Part shown: positions 5,196 through 16,505 of the stretch, piece after piece
How the letters are laid out: every line of letters begins with the position of its first letter
Numbering within the stretch: position 1 is the first letter of the stretch
Assembly: GCF_946479755.1 (NCBI RefSeq)
Contig: NZ_CAMLHC010000057.1
Span: 1-18,657, forward strand
DNA length: 18,657 nucleotides
Reading direction: 5' to 3'
DNA from: an uncultured Chitinophaga sp.
Lineage (GTDB): Bacteria; Bacteroidota; Bacteroidia; Chitinophagales; Chitinophagaceae
Program-made: the position numbers and the translations under genes
The notes under the pieces: generated by a model
What the model was told of the DNA's origin: nothing
Seen by the model: only the letters and a program-made list of their open reading frames with translations
Database searches by the model: none

Positions 5196-5816
5196 ATGAA
5201 GCTAACCGGAGTCAACGAGGAAACGTTATGGAATAACGTGATAGCAGGCGATCAGCAGGCTTTCAGGGTACTGTATGAGGCGTCGGCTGATATGCTCTAT
5301 GCCTATGCATTGCGGTATTTTCCCGATAAGGAAATGATCATGGACTGTATTCATGACCTGTTCACTGACCTGTACCTGCAGCGCCGCAACCTGGCACGGC
5401 AGGTCAACATCCGTTTTTACCTGCTGGTATCTTTCCGGCGTAAACTGAATGCTTCCCTGAAGAAAAATGCCCGGTTCTCCCTGCAGGCGGATATGACCCA
5501 GGCCGAAAGCTATTTCCAGCTTAATTTTGAAGCCAACGACGCCCAAAGCCGGATCATTGCAGCGGAAGAGCAGCAGGGTGCTTTGCACCGGCTGGCCGCC
5601 GAGATGAACAAGCTGCCGGCGCGACAGAAAGAAATCCTTTATCTGAAATATAACTGTGAACTTTCCTACGAGGAGGTAGCCCGGCTGATGCAGATTTCCG
5701 TACCTACCTGCAGGACCCTTGCCTACAGGGCTATCCGCCAGTTGCGGCAGGATATGCCGGTCACCACTATCCCGGCTTTCAGCCTGTTGTTGCTTACCTG
5801 TCTGAAAAATTTTTAA
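5196..5816 (+). CDS. ECF sigma-70 family RNA polymerase sigma factor (FecI-like)
   Basis: A 206-residue cytoplasmic sigma factor with only regions 2 and 4. Region 2 spans about 20-87 (AFRVLYEASADMLYAYALRY, then DCIHDLFTDLYLQ, which corresponds to the core-binding and -10 recognition helices). A short acidic linker at 98-130 precedes region 4 at about 135-186, where LPARQKEILYLKY, LSYEEVARLMQISVPTCRTL and YRAIRQLRQ form the helix-turn-helix for -35 binding. The hydrophobic C-terminal tail (FSLLLLTCLKNF) is common in Bacteroidota members. It lies 70 bp upstream of a fecR gene and ahead of a susC gene whose product carries an STN domain. That is the standard order for cell-surface signalling, in which the FecR protein holds the sigma factor until the transporter binds its ligand. 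The target promoter, probably that of the susC operon itself, is an inference. The ATG at 5196 is the first in frame and yields a normal N-terminus. Confidence 0.93.
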   Translation: MKLTGVNEETLWNNVIAGDQQAFRVLYEASADMLYAYALRYFPDKEMIMDCIHDLFTDLYLQRRNLARQVNIRFYLLVSFRRKLNASLKKNARFSLQADMTQAESYFQLNFEANDAQSRIIAAEEQQGALHRLAAEMNKLPARQKEILYLKYNCELSYEEVARLMQISVPTCRTLAYRAIRQLRQDMPVTTIPAFSLLLLTCLKNF

Positions 5817-5886
5817 AATTTTTTTTCCAAAAGAAGTCTATAAAAACGAAACAGCCTGCTCTGTTATATAGGGGCAAATAGTAGCT

Positions 5887-7002
5887 ATGGATATCAACAA
5901 CCAGTCATATGGCAGGGAAGACAGCCTACCGGAAGGCGCTGGCGACGACAAAGACAAAATGATCTCCATCGTTCGTGCGTCCGGTAATGAGCAGTTGTCC
6001 GTAGCGGAGAAAGCGAGCCTGTGGGAACGTATTGCCGCCGATATCACCCAGCCGCCGGTGCGGCTTTGGTGGCAGTCGTGGAAGGTGGCCGCCGCCGTAG
6101 CTTTACTGCTGACGGCCGGAATGGGCTGGTGGCAGTGGCAACGCACGCAGGAAGCGCTGCCGGCGCTGGTGGCCTTCGCTACCGGTCAGACTTACACCCG
6201 GGGCGATTCCACAGTGACCCGGATGATACTGGGCAACCAGCAACAGTTGAGCATCCGCAATACGCACGCAGCTATTACCTACCAGGCTAAAGGCACGCAG
6301 TTGCGCGTAGACTCGCAGGAGATACGCCAGGAGCTGGCCGCCGGCCGGCAGGTATTTAACACGCTGCTGGTGCCTTACGGCAATGTGGCCTCGCTGCAGC
6401 TGGAAGACGGCACCAAGGTATGGCTCAATGCGGGGTCCCGCCTGGTGTATCCTGCTGCATTTGCAGCCGGCCGCCGCGAAGTGTTCCTCGAAGGAGAAGC
6501 GTATTTTGAAGTAGCCACCGATGCGGACCGCCCGTTTAGTGTATACGCCAACGATATGAAGATCGCTGTATTAGGTACCGCATTTAATGTGTCGGCTTAC
6601 CGGGAAGATGTTGCTTCGCAGGTAGTCCTCGCCAGCGGCAGTGTGCAGCTGGAAGCTTTCAGAGGGCCCGGGAAAACAGTGGCGCCGGTACAGCTTTCTC
6701 CGGGTAACAGGGCTTCATACACCGGTGGTCATATGACAGTGGATAATGTGAACGTCGCCGGGCACATCACCTGGAAAGACGGGATTATTGTAGCAGAACA
6801 CACATCTTTACATGAAATACTCAAAAAACTATCCAGGTATTACAATCAACCAATAACAACAGACACGCGGTCGGGCAATGAAACATTTTCGGGTAATCTT
6901 GACCTGCAGAAAACACTGAACGATGTACTTGACATAATAGCAGCTTCCACTTCATTGAAGTACGAAAAGCAAGGGGGGACAATCATTTTTAAAACCAGAT
7001 AA
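5887..7002 (+). CDS. FecR-family anti-sigma factor with DUF4974 domain
   Basis: Inner-membrane anti-sigma factor expected to bind the preceding ECF sigma factor with its cytoplasmic N-terminus (residues 1-60, with the helical stretch EKASLWERIAADI) and to contact the SusC-type receptor in the periplasm. One membrane helix lies at about 66-81 (KVAAAVALLLTAGMG) and is flanked by Trp residues. The FecR domain is at about 160-256; typical segments are PYGNVASLQLEDGTKVWLNA, GRREVFLEGEAYFEV and LGTAFNVSAY. A C-terminal DUF4974 at about 300-371 (LHEILKKLSRYYNQPI, later FSGNLDLQKTLNDVLDII) resembles an STN/secretin fold and is the usual partner surface in Bacteroidota. Length, 371 residues, is normal. 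It is co-directional with the sigma gene and susC; 113 bp containing two hairpins separate it from susC. Confidence 0.95.
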   Translation: MDINNQSYGREDSLPEGAGDDKDKMISIVRASGNEQLSVAEKASLWERIAADITQPPVRLWWQSWKVAAAVALLLTAGMGWWQWQRTQEALPALVAFATGQTYTRGDSTVTRMILGNQQQLSIRNTHAAITYQAKGTQLRVDSQEIRQELAAGRQVFNTLLVPYGNVASLQLEDGTKVWLNAGSRLVYPAAFAAGRREVFLEGEAYFEVATDADRPFSVYANDMKIAVLGTAFNVSAYREDVASQVVLASGSVQLEAFRGPGKTVAPVQLSPGNRASYTGGHMTVDNVNVAGHITWKDGIIVAEHTSLHEILKKLSRYYNQPITTDTRSGNETFSGNLDLQKTLNDVLDIIAASTSLKYEKQGGTIIFKTR

Positions 7003-7024
7003 ACATCAGCGAAAAGCCAAAAAA

Positions 7025-7077
7025 ACCGGAAGATGCGGTAACATCTTCCGGTGAAGACTGCCTGCGGTAACAGGCGG
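7025..7077. promoter_or_regulatory. Two tandem hairpins with identical CGGTAA loops between fecR and susC
   Basis: The first hairpin pairs 7025-7035 (ACCGGAAGATG) with 7042-7052 over 11 perfect base pairs, loop CGGTAA at 7036-7041. The second pairs 7058-7064 with 7071-7077 over seven pairs including one G-T, loop CGGTAA at 7065-7070. No T-run follows on the plus strand, so it is not an ordinary forward terminator; on the minus strand the first stem is followed by a T-run. Likely roles are mRNA end protection or partial attenuation, which would set different levels for the regulators and the transporter. These roles are inferred. Confidence 0.65.
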
Positions 7078-7115
7078 CCCGGCTAACTATTTCATTAATT
7101 AAACCAAACAAATGT

Positions 7116-10100
7116 ATGCAAAAATTTTACGTTTGTTGGCGCTACCTGCCCGTGGGCATAGTGCCAGCCAAATTATGGCATGTTATGCGGCTAATCATAA
7201 TCCTGTTGTTCGTAGGGCTGGTGAGCGCCTACGGAAAAACCTACTCACAGAATACCCCGCTCCATGTGCGGGTGAACAACGCTCCGCTGCCGGAGCTTTT
7301 CCGCCAGATACAAGCGCAGAGCAACTGGCGTATTTTCTACAAAGATGAACTGTTGCGCGGCGAAAAAAACATCACGCTGCATCTGCGCGGTAAAAGGCTG
7401 GTGGAGGTGCTTGACAAAGCACTCGACGGTACCAGTCTCGGCTATACGATCGTAGGCACACAGGTAGCCATCGTTCCCAAAGAAGAACAGCCGGTACGGC
7501 CGCTGAAGCTTGCGCGGGAAGATACTATGCTGACCATCAAAGGCCGCGTGTACGACACCCATGAGCCGCCGGTAGCGCTGCCCGGTGTTTCCATCGGCGT
7601 AAAAGGCACTTCCCGTGGTACTACCAGCGACGCCGACGGTTACTTCACCATCCAGGCTCCCAGAAATGCTACGCTGGTATTCAGCCTCGTCGGGTTTACC
7701 GCAACGGAATATAGTGTCCTGCGCAGCAACAACGGCCTTTCCATCTCCCTGAAAGAAAACGTGTCAGCCCTCGACGAAGTAGTGGTAGTGGGCATTACAG
7801 AGCAACAGCGTAAACACATCGCCAGTTCTGTGGCTTCCCTTAACGTAAAATCAGCCATGAGCGGCAAGCCCATCACTACTATTTCGCAATCGCTGCAGGG
7901 CGGCGTCACCGGTCTGCAGGTAAGCCAGGCGTCCGGCCTGCCCGGCGGGGATGCGGCCACCATCAAGATACGCGGCATCACCTCCCTCAACGGTTCCAAT
8001 CCGCTGGTGCTGGTAGACGGTATCCCGATGGACATGAACTATATAGACCCGCTCACGGTAGAAAGTGTGACCGTGCTGAAAGATGCGGCCGCCGCTTCCA
8101 TCTATGGCGCCAGGGCCGCCAGCGGTGTTATCCTCGTTACCACCAAAAGAGGAACGCCCGGCCGTGTAGCCGTTACCTATGACGGTTATTACGGTGTGCA
8201 GTCACCCACTAAAATGCCTGCGCTGGTAGACGCTCCCCAATATATGCGCATGTACAATGAAGCACTGGCCAACTCCGGTAAAACGCCCCTGTATTCCGAA
8301 GAAGATATTCAACAAACCATCGCCGGGACCGACCCGGTAAAATATCCGAATACCGATTGGCAGAAAGTCATTGTCAACAAAAGAGCGCCTATCACCAGTC
8401 ATTCTGTAGGCGTGAGCGGCGGTAACAGCCTTGCCCGTTTCGCACTGAATGCCAACTACCAGTACCAGGATGGTATGACACCGCTGACCAGCAGCAGGAA
8501 GTATAACATTCGCGCCAATACCTCCGTGTCGCTGACCAAAAACTTCCAGATCAATATGGACCTGCTGGCCATCAAACGTAATATCCTGTTGCCTAACAGG
8601 ACACTCGGCCATGATGGTACCCGCCTGCTGGAAGATGTGTTCCGCGTGCCACCTACCATTTTGCCCAAATATCCGCAGAAAGAAGGTTCCTCCGAGATCT
8701 ACGGCCGTTACGTTGATATCGTGAATCCGCTTGCCTACGCTGAAAAAGGCGGCCGTTTTGTCAATGAATACGGGCAGTCCAGTATTAACCTGCAACCCAA
8801 GTGGGAGGTGATACCGGGACTGAACCTGCGGGGACAGTTCAGCTACCGCCTCAACAGCGACCTGCTGGGCAGCCTGCGTGACAACTATAACTTCTTCGAC
8901 TACTATACCGGTCAGCTGCTGCAAACCTGGACGCAGCAACGCGCGTATGCACAGGCGAGGACGACCTACTATTACATCGCCGCCAATGCTGATTACACGC
9001 TTGATGTAAAAGACCATCACTTCTTCCTGATGGCGGGCTATTCGCAGGAAGAAAAAAATACAAGTGCCAGCTCCGCCGGAACTTATTTGTATATCAACTC
9101 CCTGTTGTCGTCCTATGCCAAATTGAATTACTCTTACCAGGACAGGTATCTGCTGGAGCTGACCGGCCGTATGGACGCCTCTTCCAAATTTGCCAAAGGG
9201 CATAAATATGGTTTCTTTCCTTCCGTGGCCTTCGGTTGGAATATCAGCAAAGAGAAATTTATGTCCTCCGTGAAGGCGGTCAGCAACATGAAGCTGCGCG
9301 CTTCCTATGGCCAGCTGGGCAATGAGTCGGACGTGGACCTGTACCAGTATCAAACTACGATCAATTCTGGTTCAGGCCTGGAGACCAACTACGGTAATCC
9401 GAACCTGAGCTGGGAAACCGTGAACATGGCCGATGTGGGATTAGATATCGGGTTGTTTAACAATAAGCTGGAGATCGTGGTAGACTATTACAATAAACTC
9501 ACCAAAGACATTATTCTGCGTCCGCCGCTGTCCTATACCGGCGGCTTTGAAGATAAGGTGCCTGTCAATGCCGGCAAGCTGCGGAACACAGGCTGGGAGG
9601 CTTCCGTGAACTACAACGGTAACATCGGTAAAAATGTGGCCGTGTCTTTCCGCCCGGGTGTGACCTACAACAAAAACGAGATCGTGTCGCTGTTGAGCGG
9701 CCCTTATGTGAGCGCTACCACCATTCAGCAGGAGGGGGGCCCGTACGGCGGTATTTTCGGTTACAAAACCGCGGGGCTGCTGCAGGAAAGCGACTTTGAC
9801 AAGGATGGTAATCCGCTGGTACCGGTATTGCCCGGCGCCAGGCCTGGTGATATCAGGTACCTGGACCTCAGCGGCAATAAAATCATCGATGGGTCTGACC
9901 AGACATTGATTGGTAATCCGCTTGCCCGCCTGAATTACTTTGCCAATTTCCGGGTAGCGTATAAAAATTTCGATCTCGAATTTTTGTTGCAGGGAACCGG
10001 CAAGTCGGACGTAGTGCTGGAAGGTATGCTGGCATTGCCGATGGACAACAGTAAAGATGGTGGCGTACCTACCCGTTTTTATGCAGACAACTACTGGACA

Positions 10101-10400
10101 CCTCAACGTACCAACGCGATGTTCCCGCGTTTGAACACGTTGCCTACCAACAATAAATTATCCTCTGATTTCTGGTTCCAGAACGGGGCGTATATGCGGG
10201 TGAAGTATATCCAGCTGGGGTATAATTCGCAGGCTGATTGGCTGAAACGTGTTGGCATCCGTGGTTTGCGGGTGTATGTGAATGCACAGAACCCGATCAC
10301 CTTTACGAAGATGAAGCTCACCGATGCAGAGAGCCAGGGGGATCAGTGGACCTATGGTATCATGAAGGCATTTATTGCCGGTATTAATGTTCAACTTTAA
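7116..10400 (+). CDS. SusC/RagA-type TonB-dependent outer-membrane transporter with STN domain
   Basis: Energised outer-membrane importer of 1094 residues. A long basic N-region precedes a signal peptide core at about 24-38 (MRLIIILLFVGLVSA). An STN domain follows at about 48-122 (LHVRVNNAPLPELFRQIQAQ, later VLDKALDGTSLGYTI). A carboxypeptidase-regulatory-like domain lies at about 139-213 (IKGRVYD, PGVSIGVKGTSRGTTSDADG). The segment ALDEVVVVG at 218-226 is the usual SusC junction and TonB-box region. The plug covers about 233-346 (IKIRGITSLNGSNPLVLVDG and IYGARAASGVILVTTKRG). The remainder is the 22-strand barrel. The STN domain is what marks transporters that signal to FecR, matching the two genes upstream. 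The start at 7116 overlaps an out-of-frame ATG at 7112; an in-frame ATG at 7185 would leave a shorter signal peptide, but long N-regions are usual in this family. susD follows after 10 bp. The substrate is unknown. Confidence 0.95.
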   Translation: MQKFYVCWRYLPVGIVPAKLWHVMRLIIILLFVGLVSAYGKTYSQNTPLHVRVNNAPLPELFRQIQAQSNWRIFYKDELLRGEKNITLHLRGKRLVEVLDKALDGTSLGYTIVGTQVAIVPKEEQPVRPLKLAREDTMLTIKGRVYDTHEPPVALPGVSIGVKGTSRGTTSDADGYFTIQAPRNATLVFSLVGFTATEYSVLRSNNGLSISLKENVSALDEVVVVGITEQQRKHIASSVASLNVKSAMSGKPITTISQSLQGGVTGLQVSQASGLPGGDAATIKIRGITSLNGSNPLVLVDGIPMDMNYIDPLTVESVTVLKDAAAASIYGARAASGVILVTTKRGTPGRVAVTYDGYYGVQSPTKMPALVDAPQYMRMYNEALANSGKTPLYSEEDIQQTIAGTDPVKYPNTDWQKVIVNKRAPITSHSVGVSGGNSLARFALNANYQYQDGMTPLTSSRKYNIRANTSVSLTKNFQINMDLLAIKRNILLPNRTLGHDGTRLLEDVFRVPPTILPKYPQKEGSSEIYGRYVDIVNPLAYAEKGGRFVNEYGQSSINLQPKWEVIPGLNLRGQFSYRLNSDLLGSLRDNYNFFDYYTGQLLQTWTQQRAYAQARTTYYYIAANADYTLDVKDHHFFLMAGYSQEEKNTSASSAGTYLYINSLLSSYAKLNYSYQDRYLLELTGRMDASSKFAKGHKYGFFPSVAFGWNISKEKFMSSVKAVSNMKLRASYGQLGNESDVDLYQYQTTINSGSGLETNYGNPNLSWETVNMADVGLDIGLFNNKLEIVVDYYNKLTKDIILRPPLSYTGGFEDKVPVNAGKLRNTGWEASVNYNGNIGKNVAVSFRPGVTYNKNEIVSLLSGPYVSATTIQQEGGPYGGIFGYKTAGLLQESDFDKDGNPLVPVLPGARPGDIRYLDLSGNKIIDGSDQTLIGNPLARLNYFANFRVAYKNFDLEFLLQGTGKSDVVLEGMLALPMDNSKDGGVPTRFYADNYWTPQRTNAMFPRLNTLPTNNKLSSDFWFQNGAYMRVKYIQLGYNSQADWLKRVGIRGLRVYVNAQNPITFTKMKLTDAESQGDQWTYGIMKAFIAGINVQL

Positions 10401-10410
10401 TAATGGTCGT

Positions 10411-11994
10411 ATGAAAAAGATATATGCAGTCATTTTTTCAGCCGTGATGCTGACATGCAGCAGTTGTGAAAAGTTTCTCACCCATGATGATCCGGTGAGT
10501 GTGACAGATGATAACTGGTGGAAGACAGAAGCTAATGCCACCGGGGCGTTGGGATCGGTGTATGCCGGTCTGCCGGGCGGTTCCAGCGGGCGGCAGCTGA
10601 TGTTCCTTTCTGCTTTGAGTGACGAGGCAGTGGCGCGTCAGGATACCCGTGGAGCCTATGAGGCGTACGCCAAAGGATTACAGAACAGCAACTGGGACGT
10701 GGCGCTGAACTTGTGGCGGGATGACTATAAGGATATCCGCCGCGCCTGCCGGTTCCTCGAAAATGTAGACCGCTGTTATATGGATTCTTCGTTGAAAGAC
10801 CGCTATAAATATGAGGCGAGGGCCATGCGCGCTTACTATCATATGGAGATGATGCTGTTCTTTGGTGGTATTCCGATTGTTACGGAATCGCTGGAGCCGG
10901 GCAATAGTAATACTATCCGTAATTCAGAAAAAGAGGTATATGATTTTGTGGTGAGCGAGCTTACGGCGTGTGCGCCGCATTTGCCGGATGTGTATAACAA
11001 TAATGAAGCGTGGCGTATTTCTTCCGGTGTATGCTGGGCGCTGATCGCCAAGCTGGCTATGTTTTACAAGGAATATGAAACTGCGAAGATGGCCGCGCAG
11101 AAGGTGATTGATCAGAACGTGTATAAATTATACCGCAGTACTAATACAAAAGTCAACAGTTTTGCCGAGCTGTTTACTTATGCCGGTGAGTTGAATAAGG
11201 AGCGGGTGTTTTTCCGTGACAATGGCTGCTCCAATGCATGGCGGACGTTTGCACCTTATGGTGTGGGCGGGCAGACAGTGGTGTCGCCTACGATGAAGTT
11301 GGTCAACAGTTTTGAGACGCTGCAGGGTAAAACACTGCAGGAGCTGGGGCCTGATTCGCTGGCTGTTTACCAGAAAGACCCTTTCTATAAAAACAATCGT
11401 GATCCGCGGCTGGTGGCTTCTGTACTGGTGCCCGGGCAGGTGTATGAAAAAGATACGCTTCGTCCGTTTGCCAGCGAGGGCAGTGACCGTATTGGTATCC
11501 TCAACAGTACCGCCACTGGTTTCTGGGTAAAAAAATATCTCGATCCCAAAGACCGTAACGGTGCCAGTCCTTCGCTGGATTATATGATCATCCGTTATGC
11601 CGAGGTGTTGCTGAACTATGTGGAGTCGCTGGTGGAGCTGGGCGACTGGCAGAACCCTGATGTGATCAATCATCTGAATGATATCCGTACGCGTGCAGGC
11701 ATGCCCGTAGTAGATGCAGGCAAGTATAACACACAGGAGAAGCTGCGGCAGCTGATACGCCGTGAGCGTACCGCTGAGCTGGCGTTTGAAGGCGCCCGTT
11801 TTTATGACATCCGTCGTTGGGGGATACTGGGAGATGTAATGAACGGGCAGGTGCATGGTGCTGTGGATCCTGCAACCGGCGTGCCGGTGCAGGTGGAAAC
11901 GCGTTCCTGCAATGTGGAAAGGGATTTCCGTTATCCTATTCCTTTGAATGAGTTGTTAGCGAACCCGAAGATGACGCAGAATCCTTTGTATTAA
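10411..11994 (+). CDS. SusD/RagB-type nutrient-binding outer-membrane lipoprotein
   Basis: Surface lipoprotein that forms the lid over the SusC barrel and binds the substrate. The 527-residue product starts MKKIYAVIFSAVMLTCSSCEKF: a lipoprotein signal peptide, with Cys19 the likely lipidated residue by analogy with the usual SCxKF pattern (Cys16 is an alternative). The N-terminal half has SusD-type features such as DDNWWKTEANATGALGSVYAG and the TPR-like helices around YKYEARAMRAYYHMEM. The C-terminal SusD domain shows DYMIIRYAEVLLNYVESLVE, LNDIRTRAGMP and, from residue 448, LIRRERTAELAFEGARFYD followed by IRRWG. The protein ends with the usual YPIP...N.LY pattern. An in-frame ATG at 10375 would overlap susC and put 12 residues before the signal peptide, so I chose 10411. 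It is 10 bp behind susC and is followed by a strong terminator. No sugar-active enzyme is linked. Confidence 0.95.
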   Translation: MKKIYAVIFSAVMLTCSSCEKFLTHDDPVSVTDDNWWKTEANATGALGSVYAGLPGGSSGRQLMFLSALSDEAVARQDTRGAYEAYAKGLQNSNWDVALNLWRDDYKDIRRACRFLENVDRCYMDSSLKDRYKYEARAMRAYYHMEMMLFFGGIPIVTESLEPGNSNTIRNSEKEVYDFVVSELTACAPHLPDVYNNNEAWRISSGVCWALIAKLAMFYKEYETAKMAAQKVIDQNVYKLYRSTNTKVNSFAELFTYAGELNKERVFFRDNGCSNAWRTFAPYGVGGQTVVSPTMKLVNSFETLQGKTLQELGPDSLAVYQKDPFYKNNRDPRLVASVLVPGQVYEKDTLRPFASEGSDRIGILNSTATGFWVKKYLDPKDRNGASPSLDYMIIRYAEVLLNYVESLVELGDWQNPDVINHLNDIRTRAGMPVVDAGKYNTQEKLRQLIRRERTAELAFEGARFYDIRRWGILGDVMNGQVHGAVDPATGVPVQVETRSCNVERDFRYPIPLNELLANPKMTQNPLY

Positions 11995-12929: not shown

Positions 12930-13601
12930 TCAGAGGCGCCAGTCCACCGGTTCGATACCGGCTTTCAGCAGGAGCTCGTTGGTTTTGGAAAAATGTCTGC
13001 AGCCGAAGAAGCCGTTGGCCGCGCTGAAAGGCGAGGGGTGTGCCGCTTTCAGGATATGGTGGCGGGTGGCGTCTATGAGGATTTGTTTATCCTGCGCGAA
13101 GCGGCCCCACAGCAGAAATACCACATCGTTTTTCATGTCGGATATTTTGCGGATGACAGCGTCGGTAAAGTTCTCCCAGCCTATTTTGCTGTGGGAGGCA
13201 GGTTCGCTGGCCCTTACCGTCAGGAAGGCGTTGAGCAGGAGCACGCCGTGTTCCGCCCATTTGGTGAGGTTGCCGCTGGTGGGTATGTCCAGGCCGAGAT
13301 CGGTTTTCATTTCCTTGTATATATTGCCCAGCGACGGCGGCGGTTTGATGCCGTCCGGTACGGAGAAACTGAGGCCATGCGCCTGTCCGGGACCATGGTA
13401 GGGGTCTTGTCCTAAAATCACTACCTTTACTTTGTCGAAAGGTGTTTGTTGGAAGGCGTTGAAGATGTTGTTACCTGCCGGGTAGATGGTTTTTCCCAGT
13501 GCTTTCTCGTGTTTCAGGTGCATCACAATCTCCGCGAAATAGGTTTTGTTGAACTCATCTTTGAGCACTTCTTTCCAGCTTTCTTCGATCTGTACGTCCA
13601 T
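12930..13601 (-). CDS. ung: Uracil-DNA glycosylase, family 1
   Basis: Removes uracil from DNA as the first step of base-excision repair in the cytoplasm. The 223-residue product has the full family-1 signature: GQDPYHG at 64-70 with the catalytic Asp66 that activates water, the Phe/Ser-rich uracil pocket GLSFSVPDG at 76-84, LLLNAFLTVR at 121-130 with the uracil-contacting Asn124, and HPSPFSA at 188-194 with the catalytic His188 and the minor-groove loop. FFGCRHFSKTN at 198-208 is the conserved C-terminal block. Length matches the family norm of about 220-230. The start ATG at 13599-13601 gives the expected N-terminus of the family. It is divergent from the tRNA-Arg gene, with the promoter region shared between 13602 and 13734. 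Confidence 0.97.
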   Translation of the reverse strand: MDVQIEESWKEVLKDEFNKTYFAEIVMHLKHEKALGKTIYPAGNNIFNAFQQTPFDKVKVVILGQDPYHGPGQAHGLSFSVPDGIKPPPSLGNIYKEMKTDLGLDIPTSGNLTKWAEHGVLLLNAFLTVRASEPASHSKIGWENFTDAVIRKISDMKNDVVFLLWGRFAQDKQILIDATRHHILKAAHPSPFSAANGFFGCRHFSKTNELLLKAGIEPVDWRL

Positions 13602-13638
13602 ATTTTTCAGTCAATATTTTAGAAAAATTAAATTAAAT

Positions 13639-13670
13639 TTGATTTATTGGAAAATATTTCCATAAATTTG
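13639..13670 (+). promoter_or_regulatory. Promoter of the tRNA-Arg gene (TTG-N21-TAAATTTG)
   Basis: TAAATTTG at 13663-13670, followed by C, matches the Bacteroidota -7 element exactly; TTG at 13639-13641 sits 21 bp upstream as the -33 element. Transcription should begin about 13675-13677, roughly 60 nt before the mature tRNA 5' end, leaving a leader for processing by RNase P. A second TTG at 13647 is too close (13 bp). Confidence 0.65.
13648..13662. promoter_or_regulatory. 15-bp palindrome in the promoter spacer
   Basis: TGGAAA at 13648-13653 and TTTCCA at 13657-13662 are perfect inverted arms around ATA, abutting the -7 element of the tRNA promoter and facing the divergent ung gene. It could be a protein-binding site; in such A+T-rich DNA chance is also possible. 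Confidence 0.4.
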
Positions 13671-13734
13671 CACTCCCAAAATGAGAGATAAATATAGGAA
13701 TTTATTTCACATTGACGGAAAAAACAAAATATAA

Positions 13735-13808
13735 GTCTCGGTAGCTCAGCTGGATAGAGCAACTGCCTTCTAAGCAGTAGGTCATTGGTTCGAATCCAAT
13801 CCGGGATA
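13735..13808 (+). tRNA. tRNA-Arg (anticodon TCT)
   Basis: A complete 74-nt cloverleaf. The acceptor stem pairs 13735-13741 (GTCTCGG) with 13801-13807 (CCGGGAT), including two G-T pairs; the discriminator is A13808 and CCA is not encoded. The D stem uses GCTC and GAGC, the anticodon stem ACTGC and GCAGT closes the seven-base loop CTTCTAA with anticodon TCT, the variable loop is AGGTC, and the T arm is ATTGG-TTCGAAT-CCAAT. It reads AGA (and AGG by wobble). It stands alone, with its own promoter and a long hairpin directly downstream, and marks the left edge of the A+T-rich cassette. Confidence 0.96.
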
Positions 13809-13859
13809 CAAAATGAATAGGGGAAAATTGCGATAGCGGTTTTCCCCTATTCATTTTGT
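13808..13859 (+). terminator. Long hairpin directly after tRNA-Arg, probable terminator
   Basis: Positions 13808-13827 and 13840-13859 are perfectly complementary over 20 bp (core AATAGGGGAAAA), and four more pairs (two G-T) lead to a GATA tetraloop at 13832-13835, so the stem is about 24 bp. It begins at the tRNA discriminator base. The far side of the stem ends in ATTTTGTG, so the lower pairs can act as the U-rich tract of an intrinsic terminator. It lacks a clean T-run beyond the stem. Confidence 0.65.
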
Positions 13860-13883
13860 GAAAAGTTCCCCAAACTATATTTG
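13856..13883 (+). promoter_or_regulatory. Candidate promoter for the ATPase-nuclease operon
   Basis: TATATTTG at 13876-13883 fits the -7 consensus TAnnTTTG, and TTG at 13856-13858, inside the tail of the tRNA hairpin, lies 17 bp upstream. Start at about 13890 would leave a long leader of about 160 nt that contains the inverted repeat at 13960-14007. The TTG match is weak evidence by itself. Confidence 0.35.
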
Positions 13884-13959
13884 GTTTTATCCGTTATTTC
13901 ATCTCCTGTGAATTAAAATAACTTATTTATCTTGTTTATTTTGGTATAAAGGATTGCTT

Positions 13960-14007
13960 TTCCATTCTATGTTATTGACAAAAATGTATCTTACAATAAC
14001 AATGGAA
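13960..14007. promoter_or_regulatory. Imperfect inverted repeat in the ATPase leader
   Basis: The left arm TTCCATT (13960-13966), a four-base bulge CTAT, and GTTATTG (13971-13977) pair with CAATAAC (13994-14000) and AATGGAA (14001-14007), giving 14 pairs around a 16-base A+T-rich loop. It ends 45 bp before the ATPase start codon. As DNA it has the layout of an operator; as RNA it would be a leader stem-loop. Neither use is proven. Confidence 0.5.
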
Positions 14008-14041
14008 TGCCTGAAAGTGATCTCTTGTAACTATTCTAAAT

Positions 14042-14046
14042 GAGGT
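14042..14046 (+). promoter_or_regulatory. Shine-Dalgarno-like GAGGT before the ATPase gene
   Basis: GAGGT lies 6 bp upstream of the ATG at 14053, an ideal ribosome-binding position, and fixes this start. None of the neighbouring genes has a comparable site, in keeping with the usual lack of Shine-Dalgarno use in Bacteroidota. Confidence 0.6.
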
Positions 14047-14052
14047 AATCAG

Positions 14053-15315
14053 ATGAGTAAGATAAGGATAAAGAATTTTGGGCCTATCGTTGAGGGGTAT
14101 ACGCAGGATGATGGTTGGATGGATATACGTAAGGCGACAGTGCTTATCGGTAATCAGGGCTCAGGAAAGAGCACCGTCGCGAAGCTGATATCTACCTTTA
14201 CGTGGATTGAAAAAGCTTTGGTGAGGGGCGACTATCCTCAAAAGTGGTTTGAACGCAAGAATAAACTAAAAAATCAATATTTACCGTACCACAGGCTTGA
14301 GAACTACCTTAAGTCTGACAGTTCTGGTCAGACGGAAATTGACTTTCAGGGAGAGGCATATTCTATTAAGTATCGAAACGGTTCGTTGATAATTGAAGAG
14401 ATAAACCATTCGGCTTATCCTTTACCGCAAATAATGTATGTCCCTGCAGAGCGTAATTTCATTACTTATGTGAAGACGCCGAAAGAATTGAAGCTTTCTT
14501 CTCCTTCTATGCAGGAGTTTCTCACAGAATTTGACAATGCCAAAAACAATCTGAAAGGACCTGAACCACTTCCAATAAACGGCACCGCCATAGAGTATGA
14601 CAAATTAAACGATACGCTGAATCTTAGAGGCTCTGACTATAAACTGAGATTATCAGAAGCATCCAGCGGTTTTCAATCTTTAGTGCCATTGTACCTTGTA
14701 TCATCTTATCTGGCGAACTCAATTCTTATTAACAGGACTGGTGATTTGAAAGAAAAGGAAGGAATGACAGCAGATGAAATGGAGAGATTTAGAAAGGGAG
14801 TGGCAGAAATCTGGACAAATGAAAGCTTAACAGAAGAGCAACGTAGAGTCGCTCTTTCTGTATTAGCAGAAAAATTCAATAAGTCTGCATTCATTAACAT
14901 TGTTGAAGAACCCGAACAAAATTTGTTTCCCGGCTCCCAATGGGAAATGCTGCAAAGCCTGCTTGGATTTAACAACATGGCGGCTGGCAATAAGCTGATC
15001 TTAACAACTCATAGTCCTTATATTATTAATTTTCTAAACATTGCCATCCTTGGTTATGATTTAAAAGAAAAAATAGAGGATGCTAACCGGGTATCGGATT
15101 TACTACCAAAATTGCAGAAAATAGTAAAAGAAAATTCTCTGATCAGTTCATCGGATGTGGTAGTTTACCAATTAGATGAAAAAGAAGGTGTTATTCGGAA
15201 GCTACCGGCTCCTGAAGGTATTCCGACTGACAAAAACCTTCTTAATATGAAGATCCGGGAAGCCAACCAATTGTTTGATGCCCTATTAGAAATTGAAGAA
15301 GATCTAGCAAAATGA
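14053..15315 (+). CDS. AAA/ABC-type ATPase (AAA_15/COG4938-like), first gene of candidate defence pair
   Basis: A 420-residue soluble ATPase of the SMC/OLD-like ABC class. Visible motifs are an N-terminal IRIKNFGPI strand, Walker A GNQGSGKST at 33-41, an arginine-bearing YVPAERN at 129-135, an ABC-signature-like SSGFQS at 204-209, Walker B FINIVEEPEQNLFP at 280-293 (Glu285 in place of the common Asp, catalytic Glu286) and the H-loop TTHSPYIIN at 318-326. A helical insertion at about 230-275 is highly charged. The C-terminus (VVVYQLDEKEGVIRKL, then a helix to residue 420) resembles the end of COG4938-type ATPases; there is no TOPRIM domain of the OLD, Gabija or PARIS effector kind. Its last codon and stop overlap the next gene by 4 bp (ATGA), implying translational coupling. 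Nine of its 17 arginine codons are AGA or AGG and the G+C content is low, so recent acquisition is likely. Role in phage defence is inferred from architecture. Confidence 0.85.
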   Translation: MSKIRIKNFGPIVEGYTQDDGWMDIRKATVLIGNQGSGKSTVAKLISTFTWIEKALVRGDYPQKWFERKNKLKNQYLPYHRLENYLKSDSSGQTEIDFQGEAYSIKYRNGSLIIEEINHSAYPLPQIMYVPAERNFITYVKTPKELKLSSPSMQEFLTEFDNAKNNLKGPEPLPINGTAIEYDKLNDTLNLRGSDYKLRLSEASSGFQSLVPLYLVSSYLANSILINRTGDLKEKEGMTADEMERFRKGVAEIWTNESLTEEQRRVALSVLAEKFNKSAFINIVEEPEQNLFPGSQWEMLQSLLGFNNMAAGNKLILTTHSPYIINFLNIAILGYDLKEKIEDANRVSDLLPKLQKIVKENSLISSSDVVVYQLDEKEGVIRKLPAPEGIPTDKNLLNMKIREANQLFDALLEIEEDLAK

Positions 15316-15797
15316 ATTTTTTTGACAGCAAATGCCAGGAATCTCCTCGCGATGAAGAATTATTTGGTATATGTGATGATCAGAATGGAGAAAAAGCCTA
15401 CACAAATATAGATGACAGCTCAAAATGGGTGGCGACGGTCATTAATAAAAAAAAGGTAGAACTGGTTTTTACCGCAATTGATGCATGTGTAATTACGGGA
15501 AGTGAGCATAAGGATAGAGGACGTTGTGACGGAATGCTGACTTCTGATGAGCATATATTCTTTGTGGAATTAAAAGACCAAAAGGCAAATTGGAGAGAGA
15601 AAGCCATTAATCAGTTAGAATCTACCGTTCAATTTTTTCTGGAAAAAAACAGCCTCATGCAATACAGGCACAAAAAAGCATTTGCCTGTAATAAGCAACA
15701 TGCCCATTTTCAGGAAATTGATCAGGAGGAACAAATGAGATGGTTTAGAACATATGGAGTCAGGTTGGATCTTCAAGCAGAGGTTATTGTCGTCTAA
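15312..15797 (+). CDS. Small protein with PD-(D/E)xK nuclease-like motif, second gene of candidate defence pair
   Basis: I do not recognise the family. The 161-residue product has no signal peptide or membrane helix. Residues 71-90 read RCDGMLTSDEHIFFVELKDQ: an Asp (73), a short beta hairpin, then Glu86-x-Lys88 at the end of a hydrophobic strand. This is the layout of the PD-(D/E)xK nuclease core. The following helix carries a Gln (NQLESTVQFF, Gln101) as in motif III of RecB- or Cas4-like members, and strand-helix-strand elements continue to the hydrophobic end AEVIVV. Acidic residues at 50 or 65 could supply the first helix Glu. At 161 residues it is a bare nuclease domain, suggesting it acts with the ATPase, whose stop codon it overlaps (ATGA). 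Six of eight arginine codons are AGA or AGG. Nuclease activity is inferred from motif spacing only; it could be an inactive binding subunit. Confidence 0.7.
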   Translation: MNFFDSKCQESPRDEELFGICDDQNGEKAYTNIDDSSKWVATVINKKKVELVFTAIDACVITGSEHKDRGRCDGMLTSDEHIFFVELKDQKANWREKAINQLESTVQFFLEKNSLMQYRHKKAFACNKQHAHFQEIDQEEQMRWFRTYGVRLDLQAEVIVV

Positions 15798-15839
15798 TTA
15801 TCAAGCGTGTTAAGTAAACCCTCTAAACAATCAAAAGAC

Positions 15840-16340
15840 TCACCTCGCCGCTCTCACCCAATGCGGCGCATCGCCGGTATCTTTTCTCAGTATCATGTTT
15901 AACTGTGCCGCATGATGCTGTACATGGCGCATGTTATACAGGAACAGTTCAAAAACAGGCATTACTTTATTGCCTTCTGTTTCTACCCATAACTGTGTGA
16001 AATCATCTTCGGTCATGTGAAGGAGGAGGTCATGACATTTTTTTCTGCTTATCTGCAGGTAGGCCAGTACTTCTTCTTTGCTGTAAATCCTGTCCGGCAC
16101 AATATCGTCGATACCATCTTCCGGGATTTCATCACTGAGCGTGAAGGACAGCGGCGAGGTGAGCGGACCTGCGGGGATGGTTAAATAATAGTCCAGGAAA
16201 ACGGCTACATGATAGGATATATAAAAGAACTTTTTCTGTTCGCTCCAGCGGCTTTCAGGATAAGCGGAAATAGCATTGGTCAGCATGTCGATACTGCCGC
16301 CAAATTGTTTCCATAAGCTTTCCCGGATAGTTTGTGTCAT
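15840..16340 (-). CDS. DinB-family (YfiT-like) four-helix-bundle protein
   Basis: A 166-residue soluble protein of the DinB superfamily, which are four-helix bundles that bind a metal through three histidines; characterised relatives are thiol transferases using bacillithiol or mycothiol, but many have no known role. With the start at 16340 (MTQTIRESLWKQFGGSIDML), the likely metal ligands are His44 in YISYHVAVFLDYYL and the HxxxH pair His139 and His143 in NMRHVQHHAAQLN. An in-frame ATG at 16382 would add 14 residues (MITFCAGSS...) before the first helix; the shorter form fits the family better. The gene is convergent with the defence-like pair, only 42 bp apart with no clear terminator between, and divergent from the next gene. 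Nothing in the neighbourhood tells its substrate. Confidence 0.85.
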   Translation of the reverse strand: MTQTIRESLWKQFGGSIDMLTNAISAYPESRWSEQKKFFYISYHVAVFLDYYLTIPAGPLTSPLSFTLSDEIPEDGIDDIVPDRIYSKEEVLAYLQISRKKCHDLLLHMTEDDFTQLWVETEGNKVMPVFELFLYNMRHVQHHAAQLNMILRKDTGDAPHWVRAAR

Positions 16341-16505
16341 GGTGTTTTTTTTAGAAGATGATCCTGCACAAAAGGTAATCATTTCCTTATCAATTTACAG
16401 GAAAAAATAAGCGCGAGATTTTTCCGCCCGGGGAAATGTTACCAGCGGTAATCCTGCTGAAATAATACATCGTATTTTACCCTGGTATAAAACCTTTGAT
16501 GCCAT

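Follow-up and report, generated by a model that had tools for sequence, protein, structure and literature searches.

Genes A and B, adjacent on the plus strand of an 18,657-nucleotide stretch of DNA from an uncultured Chitinophaga sp. (contig NZ_CAMLHC010000057.1; hereafter the window, to which all positions refer unless a locus is named), are a member of PDC-M29, a candidate family of the PADLOC database. The pair is read here, with a probability of about 0.62, as a mobile two-gene defence module in which an ATPase gates a PD-(D/E)xK nuclease, and its role would be in phage defence. Gene A (14053-15315) encodes an ABC/SMC-type ATPase of 420 residues and gene B (15312-15797) a PD-(D/E)xK nuclease-like protein of 161 residues. 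Together they span approximately 2 kb. Both open reading frames (ORFs) of the initial annotation were confirmed, as was their 4-bp overlap (ATGA), by which gene B starts within the gene A stop codon; the same overlap recurs in 46 of 77 related loci in which both genes are complete.

Membership was assigned with the profiles of PADLOC-DB 2.0.0. The gene A protein matched PDC-M29A at E = 6.4e-186 (residues 1-417 on profile positions 1-409 of 410) and the gene B protein matched PDC-M29B at E = 1.4e-65 and 1.1e-61 (residues 1-161 on profile positions 1-161 of 162); both matches are full-length, the genes are adjacent, and no difference from the candidate was found in the features tested. PDC entries are described in an excerpt of PMC12988326 as putative defence candidates obtained through guilt-by-embedding, most of them unvalidated. 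The term PDC-M29 was absent from the main texts of open-access papers, a collection outside which bioRxiv and most subscription papers fall, and broader searches of open-access main texts returned neither a functional account nor a mechanism, so that the family is, as far as these searches show, catalogued but uncharacterised. The initial annotation had called the pair a candidate undescribed defence system, a combination matched to no named one; the term undescribed is not supported, since the pair has a catalogue number, but a functional description was not found. The pair is linked to defence in some other genomes.

Conservation was counted in alignments of 221 gene A and 217 gene B rows, each comprising the window protein, 120 database proteins and 100 (gene A) or 96 (gene B) locus proteins. 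Some loci are duplicated, so identical sequences were counted once, leaving 208 distinct gene A and 207 distinct gene B proteins. Of 504 and 5,700 matches, respectively, the best 120 were taken as database proteins, and of 492 ATPase relatives the best 80 as named-genome loci, both with a bias to close relatives; broken copies were left in the counts and are the source of some exceptions.

The four ATPase motifs first noticed in gene A are present and conserved. They comprise a Walker A motif (GNQGSGKST, residues 33-41, nucleotides 14149-14175, plus strand; K39 in 206 of 208 distinct proteins), an ABC-signature-like SSGFQS (residues 204-209, 14662-14679, plus strand; S205 in 206, G206 in 207 and S209 in 207), a Walker B motif (FINIVEEPEQ, residues 280-289, 14890-14919, plus strand; E285, E286 and E288 each in 207) and an H-loop (HSP, H320-P322, 15010-15018, plus strand; each residue in 219 of the 221 rows, H320 in 206 of 208 distinct proteins). 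Because these residues and those of gene B described below are near-invariant across distinct homologues, the motifs are not a product of chance. In fold comparison the gene A model scored Z = 17.8 with PtuA and 16.9 with Rad50, a gap of less than 1 Z; its longest helix has 23 residues and no long coiled coil was seen. A sequence search of solved structures with gene A returned distant ATPases only, the GajA profile matched at 3.6e-8, and no Toprim domain was matched in Pfam at E ≤ 1. Assignment of gene A to the broad group of SMC/OLD/PtuA-type ATPases of the ABC/SMC class is supported, and the fold scores do not decide between PtuA and Rad50.

For gene B, the initial annotation had proposed a small effector with a D-x12-ExK arrangement beside an SMC/OLD-like ATPase, and the alignment bears this out. 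C72 is invariant (207 of 207 distinct proteins) and D73, the predicted metal-binding residue, is Asp in 202 and Glu in 5 (C72-D73, 15525-15530, plus strand); E86 and K88 of the predicted catalytic motif E86-L-K88 (15567-15575, plus strand) are each present in 207 of 207, and Q101 (15612-15614, plus strand) in 206. N45 (207) and D57 (206) are also conserved. In the AlphaFold model (mean predicted local distance difference test score 94.8, predicted template modelling score 0.91), D73 lies just before strand 74-77, E86-x-K88 closes strand 81-88 and Q101 falls in the helix that follows the motif (95-112). This is the usual order of elements in PD-(D/E)xK nucleases. VIA-align gave scores of 5.5 for Upx, 5.5 for McrC (4.0 Å, 108 aligned residues), 5.2 for FokI, 4.7 for EndoMS and 4.5 for Cdn1, in a list where unrelated Rab proteins appear among the nuclease matches at 4.4. 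Foldseek with the same model returned no match at E ≤ 0.001, its top three rows being Cdn1, McrC and EcoT38I. By sequence, gene B had nothing above the cut-off in Pfam, a weak match (4.9e-4) to the PADLOC Cas4 profile, and among solved structures no match with the single sequence and two meaningless ones with its profile. Searches of PHROGs and NCBIfam returned weak matches only. A PD-(D/E)xK fold is taken as likely, mainly on the conserved residues. Four cysteines of gene B (15333-15527) are also kept, C72 in 207, C59 in 200, C8 in 199 and C21 in 193 of 207 distinct proteins, and may form a metal or structural site; C8, C21 and C59 are all absent in two loci (L015 and L020).

The two genes are linked in both directions, and their pairing is near-obligate. 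A complete gene B lies directly downstream of gene A in 77 of the 80 named-genome loci; among the three exceptions, gene B starts at a contig end (L080), is a C-terminal remnant (L037) or is absent (L046). Conversely, gene A stands beside gene B at 25 of 25 places examined, of 28 with the gene B profile (20 places, one of them, L016, in pieces, and 5 more, in one of which, L170, the gene B ORF itself was unrecognised). Within the genus, the 14 genomes with gene A (E ≤ 1e-30) all fall among the 18 with gene B. Pairwise distances for A and B were correlated (r = 0.59 over 94 rows, with four loci excluded as broken or partial; maximum of 1,000 permutations 0.19), with shared ancestry contributing to r. 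The recurrence of the pair anticipated at the outset was thus observed, and the two genes nearly always occur together. In L046 (10001-13190), where gene A is intact, the next genes are an ATPase-like gene (427 residues) and a 218-residue gene. Broken copies were also seen, with gene A split into two ORFs and gene B intact in L033 and L084, and gene A intact beside the remnant in L037; these may be assembly errors.

The pair occupies a variable site between a tRNA gene and a DinB-family gene. The tRNA gene noticed initially is tRNA-Arg (anticodon tct; 13735-13809, plus strand) by ARAGORN, with which Rfam agrees; it forms the upstream edge of the site and ends 243 bp before the gene A start codon. 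The DinB-family gene (15840-16382, minus strand; Pfam) forms the downstream edge. By blastn of the window against the nearest genome compared (G001), genes A and B are the only genes of an insertion of approximately 1,994 bp (13846-15839, plus strand) that is absent from that genome, with flanks matching at 95.7% (13400-13845) and 87.2% (15840-16353). The UDG-tRNA-Arg region was found, whole or in part, in 79 of 79 congeners searched. Of 20 relatives, 9 have a DinB homologue after the site within the stretch taken; two of these nine sites hold A and B (G030 and G075), one is empty (G001), two (G044 and G045) hold another ATPase gene paired with a 220-residue gene, and four hold other genes. 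The tRNA-Arg site is a small hotspot of accessory genes, because its content varies between A and B, no insert, other pairs and other genes. In G075 a second, incomplete tRNA 3′ end (45 nt, 93%) lies ahead of gene A and hints at insertion at the tRNA; around the window cassette no flanking repeats of att-site type were found, and the window holds no tRNA 3′-end copy.

Other contents of the site were noted in the extracted loci. L135 (turned, 1247-2994) and L137 (1279-3029) hold an ATPase gene (362-363 residues, named by eye) and a 220-residue gene at tRNA-Arg, so ATPase pairs of two or more kinds occur at the site. In L152 (turned, 1105-1726) the stretch between tRNA-Arg and the 45-nt tRNA copy, before A and B, holds two genes (102 and 85 residues) that by eye resemble a toxin-antitoxin pair, and the tRNA-Arg site of G060 (L140, 1114-2598) encodes a 494-residue protein with a putatively caspase-like YYSGHG stretch. 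The tRNA gene as a target of gene B was considered and dropped, as nothing in the data bears on the idea.

Type I restriction-modification (RM) genes were sought with HsdR, HsdM and HsdS profiles grown from one locus (L160) in 100 loci (L021-L100 and L153-L172; 96 distinct, four duplicated) and two viral contigs. The order hsdS-A-B-hsdR on a single strand was found in nine loci: in L056, L064 and L067 no other same-strand ORF of at least 70 residues lies among the four genes, in L047, L054, L063 and L160 one ORF separates hsdS from gene A, and in L052 and L066 several additional genes lie within the arrangement. Five further loci (L051, L059, L060, L065 and L080) have RM genes on one side only, and an HsdR-like protein of 1,661 residues in L043 was excluded from the count as a weak match. 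Pfam confirmed type I RM domains in 10 of 10 proteins tested (from L047, L052, L056, L063, L064 and L160). The same profiles found nothing in 18 control regions or 20 tRNA-site regions, which are largely from a single genus and unmatched to the phyla of the RM-positive loci, and the counts are limited by contig ends, with 2 kb on both sides in 53 of 80 loci. On a tree of gene A (88 rows, built by a quick method and with some long branches) the RM label needs 7 changes, by loss or gain, at least 4 of them being forced by the starred branches; random labels average 8.6, so clustering of the label is loose. The window copy is outside an hsd operon, no hsd genes being present in the window. The hsdS-hsdR gap is known to host prrC (excerpts of PMC3014915 and PMC3874165) and darTG2 (excerpt of PMC12255303). 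This placement supports a defence module well and the sensing of restriction weakly.

Proximity to known defence genes, expected by the initial annotation, was thus observed as hsd genes beside the pair in some genomes, while enrichment in defence islands is only suggestive, because profile families were counted, many per protein, among the matches listed. Neighbours of the loci of 20 relatives (131 of 210 ORFs) gave 86 families at E ≤ 1e-20, compared with 4 families from 134 of 213 ORFs in control regions taken from those genomes (18 of 20 regions existed, one of them short). In the named loci, ORFs adjoining the pair (121 of 271, from 66 of 80 loci) gave 34 families at 1e-60 and ORFs more than 6.5 kb away (150 of 179, from 54 loci) gave 15, so the far set holds defence genes too.

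PDC-M29 was compared with the named systems of similar build. PtuB of Septu is an HNH nuclease. In the related retron Ec78/Ec83 PtuAB complex the partner is also an HNH nuclease by the PDB titles, whereas gene B is PD-(D/E)xK-like and matched neither HNH nor PtuB profiles of Pfam and PADLOC at E ≤ 1. In PARIS, as described in excerpts of PMC12409363, two genes encode an ATPase and a nuclease, the ATPase holding the effector and activating it upon sensing phage proteins, T7 Ocr among them; the effector AriB is a Toprim tRNase, whereas gene B had no AriB-type (DUF4435/Toprim) match at E ≤ 1 in Pfam and PADLOC. Gene A matched the AriA profile at 1.4e-18, but this match was taken as generic and rejected as evidence of PARIS membership, the profile being about as long as Pfam AAA_15 (373 and 374). 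Gene A belongs to the broad ATPase superfamily shared by Gabija and OLD but lacks their Toprim match, and it is adjoined by gene B and by no helicase gene. PrrC of EcoprrI resembles the pair as an NTPase and nuclease encoded between hsdS and hsdR (excerpt of PMC3014915), the slot of the nine loci above (9 of 100 scanned), but is a single chain with an anticodon-nuclease domain, whereas PDC-M29 has two genes and another nuclease type and its window copy is not within an hsd operon.

For complex formation, trigger, substrate and outcome for the cell we infer the following course. The PtuA-like ATPase would probably oligomerise, bind the gene B product and hold it inactive until the ATPase senses a signal from the phage; B would then be released or activated with binding or hydrolysis of ATP, by analogy with the gating in PARIS; and B, as a metal-dependent PD-(D/E)xK nuclease, would cut nucleic acid (phage DNA, host DNA or both, or RNA) and bring the infection to a halt, abortive infection being the probable route. 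A direct attack of Rad50/Mre11 type, in which A finds DNA ends or unusual phage DNA, B degrades it and the cell survives, appears rather unlikely: the ATPase has only 420 residues and its model lacks a long coiled coil, and the scores with PtuA and Rad50 lie too close to be decisive. Most doubtful is a reading in which the pair has no role in defence, being an element of selfish or toxin-antitoxin-like kind or an accessory to DNA repair. A small mobile cassette beside a tRNA gene, with a toxin-antitoxin-like pair at the same site in G075, would suit this reading, but the hsdS-hsdR placement in distant phyla and the PADLOC listing speak against it, and patchy presence speaks against core repair.

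A special case of the gated nuclease is a guard coupled to RM, resembling PrrC or PARIS, in which A would monitor the type I complex or anti-restriction proteins and B would be a suicide nuclease; stand-alone copies such as that of the window would then guard another RM system in trans. The nine loci reproduce the prrC slot, hsdM-hsdS-prrC-hsdR (excerpt of PMC3014915), and the triggering of PARIS, also a two-gene ATPase and nuclease, by Ocr offers a precedent (excerpt of PMC12409363), but most loci, the window included, are not beside RM genes. The slot also hosts darTG2 and a pair of an AAA-like ATPase and an RNA-binding protein (excerpt of PMC12255303), and may thus receive defence modules of any kind; this special case is unlikely. 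Still less likely is its bolder form, in which PDC-M29 would be an independent two-gene counterpart of PrrC, placed more than once between hsdS and hsdR. In that form the ATPase would set B free in response to the condition of the type I enzyme or to an anti-restriction protein of the phage, and stand-alone copies at tRNA sites would guard RM elsewhere in the genome.

With the gated nuclease as the preferred reading, a family known as a catalogued candidate gains an anatomy in which a PtuA-like putative sensor ATPase is combined with a PD-(D/E)xK-like effector, where Septu has an HNH and PARIS a Toprim nuclease. The present analysis adds the PD-(D/E)xK assignment based on near-invariant residues, the linkage of the genes in both directions, an insertion that is cleanly polymorphic, and the position between hsdS and hsdR in several lineages. 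Found in distant phyla, this position makes the trigger a testable question of anti-restriction. Relatives are common (492 ATPase stretches in one scan of named genomes, gene B checked in only part), so the family is worth characterising. The gene B profile (E ≤ 0.001) was found in 22 of 148 relatives, in 21 genomes of a sample of 395 from the phylum, part of them at weak E-values, and in none of 14 control genomes, and the named loci extend to Chlorobiota, Thermodesulfobacteriota and Pseudomonadota. Relatives of gene B occurred in none of the phage records or viral contigs and in 1 of 72,556 plasmid records, and carriage of close relatives by phages is unsupported. In two viral contigs (L101, 4599-6494, and L102, 9950-11690) the gene for a distant ATPase (27-28% identity) precedes a small ORF in which a D...ELK...Q pattern was read by eye.

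Two other features of the window were recorded. Immediately after tRNA-Arg, a repeat search found an inverted repeat (13808-13859) with perfectly matched 20-nt arms around a 12-nt loop, perhaps the end of the tRNA-Arg transcript. Genes for a sigma factor, FecR, a TonB receptor and a SusD-like protein lie in series at 5196-11994, a common uptake locus of Bacteroidota.
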